From the NCBI GenBank assembly GCA_026388515.1, contig JAPLJO010000028.1, positions 1-46,043 on the forward strand: a stretch of DNA of 46,043 bases. Direction: 5' to 3'. Positions 4,677 to 30,650 of this stretch are shown here, in pieces. The notes below the pieces were generated by a model, which saw nothing but the letters and a program-made list of their open reading frames with translations, did not search any database and was not told the origin of the DNA. Origin of the DNA: Deltaproteobacteria bacterium. GTDB lineage: Bacteria > Desulfobacterota > Syntrophia > Syntrophales > UBA2210. Made by a program: the position numbers and the translations under genes. Numbering within the stretch: position 1 is the stretch's first letter; every line of letters begins with the position of its first letter.

Positions 4677-5783
4677 TTATTCGAACCCCATCACTTCATA
4701 GAGGCATTCGCCGGAAATGTCGTCGGTGATGCCGTCGTACTCGATGGTCCCCTCATAGTCGGCGATCACGCGGAAGTAGGTGGGTTTGAATACAAAGGTG
4801 CGGGCCGCCCACTGGGCAACAGGGTTGAGGTCGGACATGGTGAGAAGGTCCACGTTTTCAACGACTGCCTTCAGTGTGATGTCAATGTGGGCCTTCGTGC
4901 CGCCGTTCTCAAAATCAACGGTGATTTTGGAGGGATAGTGCCGCCCGAGTACGGGGTCGGTCACGAAATTCTCCTGCCGGATGGTGGGGCTTCCGGTCCC
5001 GACAATCATCGTATCACCCTTCGCGATGTAGAGAGGGCGCGATTCAATCGAAGAATTATAGTAATCGACGTCGGCATAGACAATCGTGTAGTCGCCGGCG
5101 ATGATCCTTCCCCACACCCACCGCCGCGTGATTTCATAGAGCGGTCTGCGACCCCAGTTGTGATCGGCGTACCCCGTGCCGGTGACCTCCCGGGACACAC
5201 CGTCCCGCGTGATGGTTCCCGTGATTCTGTTCTTCGCCTGGTGAATGGTCCAGAAGAAATCCAGCGCGGACTCATTGACTCCGTCATCCCCCTTCGGCAT
5301 CCAGCCCGGGGCAAGGGTGCTGAGAGTGAGATCGGCTTCCAGGCCGTCGATTTTCCAGTAGACACGGTATGTGGTGTCGTTCAATCTGCGGAGGAAACCG
5401 GCGGAACTTCTTATGCCGGCATCATCAAGGGATGATGTTATCTCCTCCGCCTCCAGGGTGACAAGACGTGTTTCTTTCGACCAGTCCGGTCCATAGAGAG
5501 AAAGCATGGCGCCCGGTTTCCCGGTGGTGAAGCTCGGGTCGAGGAAGACGCCCACGAAGGTATCGCCGTTATCGAGATGACCGTCGAAATACCACCACTC
5601 GAAAGGCCGGGGGCCCTCAATGACATGGCGTGCACGGTCCTGCGCCGGCGGCGGACTGGTTCCCCAGTCGAGGTAACGATCCGTGGTGCCCACTATTTCC
5701 GTGGGGCGTTCGAGGTGCGTGCAGGCCGCCATTACAAGTACCGCACACAGCAACCACGCATATTTCCCGAGTGCATTTTTCAT
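4677..5783 (-). CDS. CrtC/AttH-like lipocalin-fold lipoprotein
   Basis: 368 residues with a lipoprotein signal (VLVMAAC, Cys 21). The mature part matches the double-lipocalin family that includes hydroxyneurosporene synthase CrtC, AttH and fungal Diels-Alderase-like proteins. Diagnostic are EWWYFDGHLDNGD near the N-terminus and GTGYADHNWG in the middle. CrtC proteins hydrate carotenoids, but most bacterial relatives have no assigned substrate and no carotenoid gene lies nearby, so only a small-hydrophobic-ligand binding or hydratase role can be suggested. The ATG at 5783 is preceded by a purine-rich site (GGGACGGGA). It follows the cobalamin adenosyltransferase by 63 bases; whether it belongs to the same transcript is unclear. 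Confidence 0.83.
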   Translation of the reverse strand: MKNALGKYAWLLCAVLVMAACTHLERPTEIVGTTDRYLDWGTSPPPAQDRARHVIEGPRPFEWWYFDGHLDNGDTFVGVFLDPSFTTGKPGAMLSLYGPDWSKETRLVTLEAEEITSSLDDAGIRSSAGFLRRLNDTTYRVYWKIDGLEADLTLSTLAPGWMPKGDDGVNESALDFFWTIHQAKNRITGTITRDGVSREVTGTGYADHNWGRRPLYEITRRWVWGRIIAGDYTIVYADVDYYNSSIESRPLYIAKGDTMIVGTGSPTIRQENFVTDPVLGRHYPSKITVDFENGGTKAHIDITLKAVVENVDLLTMSDLNPVAQWAARTFVFKPTYFRVIADYEGTIEYDGITDDISGECLYEVMGFE

Positions 5784-27870: not shown

Positions 27871-28656
27871 ATGACTGATCATACGAACCGCCGTGACACA
27901 GCATTGCTTGACGCACCGGAAGGTGTCGTCGAAACCCTTCTCTATGCCGTTACCATACTCCTCAGGATTTTTTCGCGAAAAACCTATAACAGCGCCACCA
28001 GGGCGGTGCTGACAAATCAGATTTATTTTACCTCCGTCCAGATTCTTCCGCTCTTTCTTATTGTGTCGGTGCTTCTGGGAACTCTTTTTATCGGGATGAT
28101 TTTTCAGACCATAAAAAATCTGGGACTGGATGAGTACCTCGGGACCATCCTCATTGGATTTGTCGTCACCGAATTATCCCCCTTCGTATTCGTGCTGCTC
28201 ATTGCACTCCGTTCCGGATCGGCAATCAACACGGAAATCGCCGTTATGAAGGTCAACAGGGAACTCTTCACGCTCTCCGTATTTGGTATCGACGTTATCG
28301 ATTATCTTTTCGTGCCGAGAATATTGAACGGCGTTATTTCGCTGGTACTGCTGAGCGTTCTTTTTTCCATCATCCTCGTGATAAGCGGGTTTCTGTTTTC
28401 CCATATCATTTTCGATATGGAATTTTCCATGTATTCAAGCCTCGTGGCGCATTCGGTTCTCTTTTCCGATATGGCAATCCTGCTGCTTAAATGCACCGCC
28501 TTCGGTTTCTGTGTGACATTCATCCCCATACTGTACGGAATGAAAACATCATACATGCTCACAAGCATCCCCGTGTCGGTACTGCAGGGCATGATGCGCG
28601 TGTTCGCCGCCATAATCACAGTGGAGGTGCTGTCATTAATCGCCCGATTCATCTGA
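27871..28656 (+). CDS. mlaE: MlaE-family ABC transporter permease
   Basis: 261 residues with about five or six membrane helices. The family signature ELSPFVFVLLIALRSGSAINTEIAVMKVNREL...GIDVIDYLFVPRI is clear. MlaE permeases form the inner-membrane core of MCE transporters that move phospholipids or other lipids between inner and outer membranes. It starts an operon of four overlapping genes: permease, degenerate ATPase, MCE protein, lipoprotein. The usual order places the ATPase first; here it follows. Confidence 0.93.
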   Translation: MTDHTNRRDTALLDAPEGVVETLLYAVTILLRIFSRKTYNSATRAVLTNQIYFTSVQILPLFLIVSVLLGTLFIGMIFQTIKNLGLDEYLGTILIGFVVTELSPFVFVLLIALRSGSAINTEIAVMKVNRELFTLSVFGIDVIDYLFVPRILNGVISLVLLSVLFSIILVISGFLFSHIIFDMEFSMYSSLVAHSVLFSDMAILLLKCTAFGFCVTFIPILYGMKTSYMLTSIPVSVLQGMMRVFAAIITVEVLSLIARFI

Positions 28657-29123
28657 GCTTCTTCGACCGCGGAGAGGTCCTCACACGTGCGAGGGATGAG
28701 TGTCTTGCGCTTCATCCCCGAAGGGGCTTCGTGTCTCCCGATGCCCCGCTCATATCGAATCTCTCCGTATGGGAAAATGTGGCGCTTATACAACAGTATC
28801 ATCAGGGGTATTCCGGAACAACGGCGCACGCACTGACGCTCCAGCACCTCGGTATGCTCCGCTGTGAATCCGTCGCGATGAAGCGCAATCCCGAATTGAG
28901 GGATGAAGAGCGGTTCCGCGTCATGCTTCTGCGAGCCGCCATGATGAATGATGTGCTTGTGATTGATCGGCCGTTTCTCATCATTCCGAACATGGCAGAT
29001 GCCGGTTTCATGTTTGAAAATCTCGAGGTGCTTGAAAATCTGTTTACAGAATGCTTTATTTTTGATTATGAATCACACAGGAGCAAGTATACGACCTATG
29101 ATACAGAAACGCATCGAACTTAA
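28635..29123 (+). CDS. Degenerate MlaF-like ABC ATPase lacking the P-loop
   Basis: About 162 residues that align with an MlaF ATPase from just after the Walker A motif onward: RRGFVSPDAPLISNLSVWENVAL corresponds to the Q-loop and following helix, NPELRDEERFRVMLLRAA to the signature region, and VLVIDRP to Walker B. No P-loop is encoded in the frame. The Q-loop Gln, the LSGGQ signature and the catalytic Glu are also lost, so it cannot hydrolyse ATP. No ATG or GTG lies at a suitable place. An ATT at 28635 sits six bases after GGAGGT and is the best start candidate, overlapping the mlaE stop. The reading frame is intact to the MCE gene, which suggests retention rather than decay. Confidence 0.65.
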   Translation: MNRPIHLSFFDRGEVLTRARDECLALHPRRGFVSPDAPLISNLSVWENVALIQQYHQGYSGTTAHALTLQHLGMLRCESVAMKRNPELRDEERFRVMLLRAAMMNDVLVIDRPFLIIPNMADAGFMFENLEVLENLFTECFIFDYESHRSKYTTYDTETHRT

Positions 29124-29991
29124 AGTCTGGATATTCATTATCACCGCCCTGGTTCTCATCTCCGCGTTCTTCGTCTTCATCGCCTATAAAAAGGACATGT
29201 TCTCCAGGGTATACACCTACACACTCCTTTCCAAATCGGGCGAGGGCTTCAGCGTGGGCATGCCCCTCAAATTCTCGGGGTTCATCATCGGCACGGTAAA
29301 AAGCCTGGAGCTGAACGAAAGCGGCATGGTGATCGCGAAAGTCAGGGTGCCCGAGCGGCATATCAAATGGCTCCGGCAGGACAGCATCCTCATACTCGAC
29401 AGGCCCCTCATCGGCGCCCCCAAGATAACGGTCTTCACCGAGAATCTGCAGAGCCCCGTGCTTTCCACCGACAGCCTTAAGGAAATATATCCCGTGGACA
29501 GCATCAACGACGCCGTTCAGAAAATCGAGCCGCTTCTCGAAAAAATCGATGTCATTCTCGACAATACCGCCCGCATCACCGGCTCTCTGGCGGGGAAAGA
29601 GACTCTCCTCGAAATGGCGGTCGGCGACAAGGATGCCGTACAGTCCATCATCAACACGCTGAAGAAATCGGAAGAAATGGGCAGACACGTCGTCAATATC
29701 ATCGAAAAGATCGATACGACATCTTCGAAGCTCGACCAGAATCTCTTCGGGTCCGGCGGCACCTTTACGCTGGTTCATGCAATACTGAAGGATGTCCTCG
29801 CCAAACTCGAAAAGCTCGATACGGTAGTGCAGAACGTTTCCCAGACAAGCACCGACGTCACGCACTCGACGAGGGACCTTGAAAAATTGAGAAACGACAT
29901 CGACACCGCCATGGATTCGGTGAACGAACTGCTCCTTAAAATAGAAAGAACACTCCCCTCACAGAAAAAGAAGGATGTGGAACTGCCATGA
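29098..29991 (+). CDS. MCE-domain (MlaD-like) substrate-binding protein
   Basis: 297 residues. One N-terminal membrane helix (VWIFIITALVLISAFFVFIAY) is followed by a single MCE domain (about 40-110: GEGFSVGMPLKFSGFIIGTVKSLEL is typical) and a long C-terminal region rich in heptads, predicted coiled coil. MCE proteins form hexameric rings or tubes in the periplasm that carry lipids between membranes. The ATG at 29098 overlaps the ATPase-like gene by 26 bases; AGGAG is about 14 bases upstream. The stop overlaps the following lipoprotein start as ATGA. Confidence 0.9.
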   Translation: MIQKRIELKVWIFIITALVLISAFFVFIAYKKDMFSRVYTYTLLSKSGEGFSVGMPLKFSGFIIGTVKSLELNESGMVIAKVRVPERHIKWLRQDSILILDRPLIGAPKITVFTENLQSPVLSTDSLKEIYPVDSINDAVQKIEPLLEKIDVILDNTARITGSLAGKETLLEMAVGDKDAVQSIINTLKKSEEMGRHVVNIIEKIDTTSSKLDQNLFGSGGTFTLVHAILKDVLAKLEKLDTVVQNVSQTSTDVTHSTRDLEKLRNDIDTAMDSVNELLLKIERTLPSQKKKDVELP

Positions 29992-30650
29992 AGCGTGTAA
30001 TCATCGCCGCACTGATTGTCTCCTTCATTGCCGGATGCGCCGCAAAACACATTCCCGAATGGAAATCGGCAGCATTCAGACACATGGAAGCCTACAAGAA
30101 AGACGCGCTCACCGGTGATGACCGGATGGCAGATATTTATTTTTCGCGGGCGCTTGCGGAGATTAAAAAAAGCGGTGACCTGGAGGTGCTCGCCAGGGCG
30201 CACCTCCTGAAATACGCACTCAGGGCCGCCATGCTTGATCCCCCCGGCGATGACGCATTCACCGCCATTCACGACATCGAGGACAGCCGGGAAAATGCCG
30301 CCTATTTTGCCTTTCTCACCGGGGGTCCGGAAAAAGCGGATGGGGCGCTTCTCCCCCCGCAGTACGGTCCTTTCATCGCCGCCTTTCAGCGGGGTGCGAA
30401 AGGCGAGATGAATGCCGCGCTTGCGGGCATGGATGACCCCCTTTCACGGCTCATCGCCGCCGGCATTGCCGTCACGCACCAGCGCTTCAACGAAGACACC
30501 CTTACACTGGCAGCGGATACGGCATCGGGCGAAGGCTGGAAAAAAGCACTCCTTGTATATCTTTCGCGGCTCGAGTTATTGTATAAGGAAAAGGGGGACG
30601 AGGCACGGGCACTCCTCATGGGGAAGAGAATTGCCCTCATTAAGGACTGA
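29988..30650 (+). CDS. Lipoprotein of the MCE operon
   Basis: 220 residues with a lipobox (FIAGC, lipidated Cys 17). The mature part is mostly helical and TPR-like in composition but shows no family I recognise. By position it may be the outer-membrane-side component of the transporter, filling the slot of MlaA or an ABC-associated lipoprotein in other MCE operons. It overlaps the MCE gene by four bases (ATGA), ends the operon and is convergent with hldD. Confidence 0.75.
   Translation: MKRVIIAALIVSFIAGCAAKHIPEWKSAAFRHMEAYKKDALTGDDRMADIYFSRALAEIKKSGDLEVLARAHLLKYALRAAMLDPPGDDAFTAIHDIEDSRENAAYFAFLTGGPEKADGALLPPQYGPFIAAFQRGAKGEMNAALAGMDDPLSRLIAAGIAVTHQRFNEDTLTLAADTASGEGWKKALLVYLSRLELLYKEKGDEARALLMGKRIALIKD

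Follow-up and report, generated by a model that had tools for sequence, protein, structure and literature searches.

A P-loop-less MlaF-like protein with a conserved AUU/AUC start codon in MCE operons of Syntrophales and Campylobacterota

RESULTS

Four overlapping or adjoining genes at the locus

The window, that is the whole stretch of DNA analysed here, comprises 46,043 nucleotides of contig JAPLJO010000028.1 from a bacterium of the Syntrophales, whose assembly amounts to 2.68 Mb in 175 contigs. On its forward strand we found genes for an MlaE-type permease, a short MlaF-like protein (pseudo-MlaF), an MCE protein and a lipoprotein, with the following features:

27871..28656, + strand: MlaE-family permease of a distinct subfamily (PF02405, E 3.9e-42); its C-terminus (...VEVLSLIARFI) overlaps the pseudo-MlaF gene
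28623..28629, + strand: Shine-Dalgarno sequence GGAGGTG of the pseudo-ATPase gene, within mlaE (from sequence)
28635..28637, + strand: ATT (AUU), start codon of pseudo-MlaF (ATT/ATC in 99 loci)
28635..29123, + strand: P-loop-less pseudo-MlaF, 162 aa (homologs, AlphaFold2 model, NBD fold, dN/dS)
28746..28763, + strand: PLISNL motif after the degenerate Q-loop, permease-docking region (residue conservation in 101 loci)
28962..28976, + strand: degenerate Walker B IDRPF, catalytic Glu replaced by Arg (Glu in 0/101 loci)
29098..29991, + strand: MCE (MlaD-like) protein with one MCE domain (PF02470, E 9.8e-6; TIGR00996, E 1.4e-8)
29988..30650, + strand: lipoprotein with lipobox IAGC, all-helical, without a Pfam family (lipobox Cys invariant)

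The permease scores 144.7 bits against PF02405 (cut-off 22.5) and the MCE protein 26.2 bits against PF02470 (cut-off 25.1). The MCE gene is kept in 13 of 13 operons compared, and the long C-terminal region of its product appears coiled-coil-like by weak matches only. In the lipoprotein the lipobox Cys is invariant among 25 aligned orthologs; its AlphaFold2 model (pLDDT 92.4) is all helix, and a fold search of the PDB gave no matches at E<=0.001. An earlier note, made from the DNA letters, had described the frame between permease and MCE gene as uninterrupted, overlapping both neighbours and preceded by a ribosome site before an ATT codon. This description is accurate: the frame at 28635-29123 is open over 162 codons, its first 22 nt are shared with the MlaE frame (stop at 28654-28656) and its last 26 nt with the MCE gene (ATG at 29098), and GGAGGTG at 28623-28629 lies ahead of the ATT at 28635.

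Catalytic motifs are lost and docking residues are kept

In sequence, pseudo-MlaF resembles ABC ATPases over a segment that begins shortly ahead of the Q-loop and ends shortly past Walker B. Pfam ABC_tran gives no match for the window protein and matches seven of 26 homologs (best 9.7e-5), the NCBIfam MlaF model reaches 11.5 bits where its cut-off is 441, and the family passes the cut-off of none of the Pfam or NCBIfam models. Across 101 pseudo-MlaF loci we found neither a Walker A P-loop (GxxGxGK[S/T] or GxxxxGK[ST]) nor the LSGG signature nor the sequence DEP, and the catalytic Walker-B Glu was never present. At its position the Syntrophales have Arg in 68, Gln in 12, Lys in five and Asp in two of 87 loci, and the Campylobacterota have Thr, Lys, Arg or Leu. 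The replacement of Q-loop Gln, signature motif and Walker-B Glu that the note had reported is thus true of the window protein, where all three are substituted, and for the latter two it extends to the whole set of loci. Other residues are strongly conserved. The Pro of the PLISNL motif is found in 101/101 and its Asn in 97/101 loci, the Asn of ENVAL just downstream in 101/101, and two further residues are invariant as well, an Arg in the LLRAA helix and the Pro behind the dead Walker B. The invariant residues lie around the former Q-loop and the helical subdomain, which form the permease-docking side of ABC NBDs. In MlaFEDB a coupling helix of MlaE makes contact with MlaF (PMC7790496). By sequence, the motifs for ATP binding and hydrolysis have been lost while permease-facing residues have been retained.

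The predicted fold is that of an ABC nucleotide-binding domain

AlphaFold2, supplied with 29 natural sequences, predicted pseudo-MlaF at pLDDT 90.8 and pTM 0.87. In searches with Foldseek and VIA-align the model matched ABC ATPases throughout (Foldseek TMq 0.70), and against E. coli MlaF (6xbd_I) it gave Z 14.8 and rmsd 2.8 over 158 residues with 17% identity. Model residues 1-162 superpose on MlaF 32-218. Alignment to MlaF only downstream of Walker A, as the note had put it, is therefore correct for the sequence but not for the fold. In the predicted structure the strand that leads into the P-loop and the helix that follows it are retained, and the P-loop itself is a two-residue turn; the antiparallel N-terminal beta subdomain and the C-terminal tail of MlaF are missing. 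The model thus has the NBD fold of ABC proteins without the motifs of a functional ATPase.

A short family in two phyla

Pseudo-MlaF belongs to a family of about 160 aa encoded in the order MlaE, pseudo-MlaF, MCE, lipoprotein. Of 60 relatives, about half encode a homolog that covers the whole window protein (E 1e-25 to 1e-41), and close homologs lie on contigs labelled Syntrophaceae, Smithellaceae, Syntrophales and Syntrophus and on one Campylobacterales contig. In the named genome contigs a single-protein query gave no matches and a profile built from a tighter alignment did. Profile search detected the short form in roughly 88 of the 155 Syntrophales genomes, and a search of the order to which the Campylobacterales contig belongs recovered it in 14 of 200 Campylobacterota genomes. 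In a draw of 297 genomes of the phylum, those outside Syntrophales contained no short form; the next matches there were full-length ATPases at E >= 2e-13. The four-gene order, for which the note had proposed a search in related genomes, is conserved in 13 of the 13 operons compared and also in the Campylobacterales contig. Two loci call for separate mention. One assembly (G025) has two different pseudo-MlaF copies on two contigs (L012, L163), by duplication or contamination. A contig labelled as a Methanosarcina sp. MAG (L083, JADGNM010000222.1) is most likely mis-binned: it bears this bacterial operon, with 74% identity to that of a member of the Syntrophales.

Purifying selection speaks against local decay

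Over 229 pairs the median dN/dS of pseudo-MlaF was 0.25 (Nei-Gojobori, first codons excluded), and among the rows listed, pairs with dS <0.7 gave 0.08 to 0.38. By these ratios the frame is under purifying selection; the neutral evolution which, according to the note, would speak against a retained scaffold was not seen. We also looked for an orthologous operon with a full-length functional ATPase and found none beside this MlaE subfamily, so that the recent local deletion which the note had considered finds no sign in the orthologs either. A pseudogene, arising by recent local truncation of a normal mlaF with its decay still to come, would account for the missing catalytic motifs and for the lack of a canonical start codon in the window. 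We regard it as hardly conceivable, because the same length, motifs and operon recur in more than 100 loci of two phyla, the MlaE subfamily never stands beside a full-length functional ATPase, dN/dS is well below 1 and the fold is predicted with confidence. Local decay was accordingly rejected on the carriers in both groups (~88/155 and 14/200) and on dN/dS values mostly between 0.08 and 0.4. The gene looks like a conserved structural part and not like a broken gene. Of the note's phrase, a catalytically dead MlaF remnant, the first half stands and the word remnant does not: it undersells a family with invariant architecture and a conserved AUU/AUC start.

In one locus (L110, ~4990-5160) the middle of the pseudo-ATPase gene has been removed by an in-frame deletion which leaves the start region and the last ~45 residues; the MlaE and MCE frames stay open, and an assembly error is possible. 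A further genome (G149:C164) probably shares this type of loss. If the middle has been lost in the L110 lineage, the gene is not indispensable everywhere, which suggests that the pseudo-ATPase part can be lost.

A conserved AUU/AUC start codon

Among 99 loci with readable starts the start codon is ATT in 88 and ATC in 11 (one family), and ATG, GTG or TTG in none; these loci are related, so that their counts are not independent events, and come from around 40 genera in two phyla. All 99 have a GAGG-type Shine-Dalgarno sequence at fixed spacing before AT[T/C]. The overlapping MlaE codons reflect this arrangement. The codon that supplies the A of ATT has A as its third base in 97/97 loci, against a mean of 15% A at the four-fold degenerate third positions of these genes, and the Glu codon within the Shine-Dalgarno sequence is GAG in 97/97 loci vs a background of 32%. 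Judged by Shine-Dalgarno spacing and codon conservation, ATT is the start codon of pseudo-MlaF. In the ATC clade (11 loci) MlaE has Ser (TCG) in place of Leu (TTA) and ATC is still the start, hence it is the start that is kept and not the MlaE residue. That ATT is kept merely for the MlaE Leu was rejected on this exchange and on the invariant third-base A. An overlooked canonical start was likewise rejected: in 97 of the 99 loci the 60 nt upstream contain no canonical start in frame, a TGA three codons upstream of ATT shuts the frame in many loci, and the first in-frame NTG is not shared, being scattered from codon 6 to codon 80.

It might be argued that pseudo-MlaF is made by a frameshift from mlaE as an MlaE-pseudo-NBD fusion, with ATT as part of the shift site, since the frames overlap by at least 22 nt and the DNA around ATT is conserved. 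However, a slippery heptamer is lacking, a -1 shift at TCA-TTA would not allow sensible re-pairing, the upstream TGA leaves a tiny window in many loci, and what is conserved is instead a Shine-Dalgarno sequence at ideal spacing. We consider this explanation highly improbable.

A distinct MlaE subfamily and degenerate full-length relatives

The MlaE proteins that accompany the short form score at least 343 bits with a subfamily HMM, and other MlaE proteins in a 247-genome draw of the phylum score at most 155 bits. Their best-conserved 20-residue stretch, LLIALRSGSAINTEIAVMKV, extends into the region of the coupling helix. No conclusion depends on the E. coli MlaE row of this conservation analysis or on one outgroup row of the tree below, both of which were entered by hand. 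In the genome of the window, MlaE of this subfamily and canonical MlaE are 26% identical.

The nearest operons with other MlaE genes in Desulfobacterota (L208-L230, L118-L124, L028, L029) encode full-length MlaF-like proteins. From the operons of the next-closest MlaE genes and from earlier distant matches we assembled a degenerate MlaF-like set. Among 27 aligned full-length members neither LSGG (0/27) nor the H-loop His (0/27) is present, the P-loop is intact in some (GASGSGKS) and eroded to varying extent in others, up to erasure (DPTGLSGA, ADSPDDAH), the Walker-B Glu is lost in most, and loss of the Q-loop Gln is graded. All retain a motif of the LISN/LIAN type. They resemble pseudo-MlaF in having this motif after the Q-loop and in having lost LSGG and H-loop, but differ in their length of 225-280 aa, in the whole NBD outline and in the other MlaE subfamilies that stand alongside. 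The pseudo-MlaF family profile matched a set of four degenerate proteins at E 2.3e-12, compared with E 1.6e-8 for canonical MlaF. In a tree of short, degenerate and canonical MlaF the short form is one clade (100/100), and its placement among the degenerate groups is supported by just 26/76. Because of the shared LISN motif and the closer profile match, the short form looks like the extreme of a wider trend towards inactive ATPases among MCE operons. The alignments suggest that degenerate forms run from full-length proteins with eroded motifs to the minimal P-loop-less form, and dead or impaired MCE ATPases apparently make up a broad undescribed class.

DISCUSSION

In this study we describe an MlaE-MCE operon, for a predicted inner-membrane lipid transporter, in which the place of the ATPase is taken by a protein that by prediction has kept the fold of an NBD and that has lost its catalytic motifs. 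To the known MCE transporters it adds a form with a pseudo-ATPase as probable subunit, read from a conserved AUU-class codon. A literature search found no description of the pseudo-MlaF family, although subscription journals were thinly covered and this absence is not proof. Conservation in two phyla, purifying selection, a confident NBD fold and the docking motif together strongly support the central idea of the earlier note, a dead and scaffold-like pseudo-ATPase that has been retained. We think that the pseudo-NBD probably serves as a structural part on the coupling helices of MlaE, and that MCE transport here proceeds without ATP hydrolysis by a subunit of its own. In such a machine the AUU, 6 nt after a strong Shine-Dalgarno sequence inside the end of mlaE, would initiate the 162-residue pseudo-NBD, which would act as a fixed cap or clamp, seated on the coupling helices of the MlaE dimer and holding MlaE and MCE protein together. 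Lipid transfer from one membrane to another would then need no hydrolysis of ATP by this subunit, and the system would be functionally like PqiAB and LetAB. That transport is free of ATP altogether is a further step, towards which our analysis leans only slightly.

The strongest competitor to a hydrolysis-free operon is energy supplied in trans, with the pseudo-NBD on one protomer or as a stabiliser and a complete MlaF of the canonical mla operon binding the MlaE dimer. The search for a complete MlaF elsewhere, which the note had advised, was positive: the genome of the window has a full MlaE-MlaF-MlaD set (G000:C126). A second MlaE is present in 48 of 48 carrier genomes tested, and a complete MlaF follows it in those inspected. 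There is also a precedent, as mycobacterial Mce1 and Mce4 share one ATPase, MceG, which is encoded elsewhere (PMC9947336). However, the co-occurrence of MlaE genes is weak evidence, since these bacteria commonly have the canonical operon in any case. Moreover, the operon keeps a subunit of its own at the NBD place, and its MlaE is strongly diverged from the canonical one. Energy in trans therefore appears rather unlikely to us. Less probable still, and in our opinion improbable, is a soluble regulator that is no part of the transporter, for example a dominant-negative partner of canonical MlaF. A small soluble domain that keeps much of the NBD outline as a fold would suit such a role, but in the loci compared the gene always lies between MlaE and MCE and never beside the canonical operon, and its permease-facing residues are the most conserved.

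MlaF of MlaFEDB (6XBD, 6XGY, 7D06) has the same operon place beside MlaE and MCE and shares the NBD fold over residues 32-218. Pseudo-MlaF differs from it in lacking the P-loop, Q-loop Gln, LSGG, catalytic Glu and H-loop His, the N-terminal beta subdomain and the C-terminal tail, and in its AUU/AUC start. To our knowledge the Mce1 and Mce4 operons contain no pseudo-NBD, and MceG is a complete ATPase, unlike pseudo-MlaF. PqiAB and LetAB (YebST) are MCE lipid systems whose membrane proteins, PqiA and LetA, have no ATPase (PMC12436622). PqiABC also includes a lipoprotein; the one described here is all-helical and has no counterpart in the PDB at the threshold given above. However, PqiA and LetA are not MlaE permeases, and their MCE proteins have several MCE domains and come without a pseudo-NBD. 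Energy use by MCE systems and the direction of lipid movement are debated. Here evolution has retained an MlaE-MCE machine whose NBD is dead, so that what an NBD contributes to structure can be told apart from its hydrolysis of ATP. It might even be that many MCE transporters of Desulfobacterota and Campylobacterota have swapped their ATPase for a pseudo-ATPase and act as ATP-free lipid conduits that the dead NBD keeps assembled, with the minimal form made from an obligatory, IF3-sensitive AUU/AUC start; on this broader proposal we lean neither way.

The start codon itself is a second point of general interest, as an AUU/AUC start that is evolutionarily fixed across phyla besides infC. A plausible reason for the avoidance of NTG is the overlap: NTG followed by A would create TGA in the mlaE frame, and AUU would let the tail of MlaE read through. 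The AUU start would also make translation weak and sensitive to IF3. IF3 is known to repress AUU-class starts, and annotation misses such starts (PMC5472188). It is plausible that pseudo-MlaF has no family model because its AUU/AUC start hides the gene from ordinary gene callers. Conserved, IF3-discriminated non-NTG starts have been noted in infC (AUU/AUC/AUA) and in sigR of Streptomyces (GTC) (PMC5472188), and in this respect they are like pseudo-MlaF. In infC the non-NTG start serves autoregulation, whereas the start of pseudo-MlaF lies in the overlap with the upstream gene of a transporter operon and is found in two phyla. As a control we examined infC in seven Syntrophales genomes (L191-L197), all of which have a non-NTG start (ATA in six, ATC in one) after a strong Shine-Dalgarno sequence; in the genome of the window infC lies at G000:C105:5950. 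Three infC genes of Campylobacterota appear to start at TTG.
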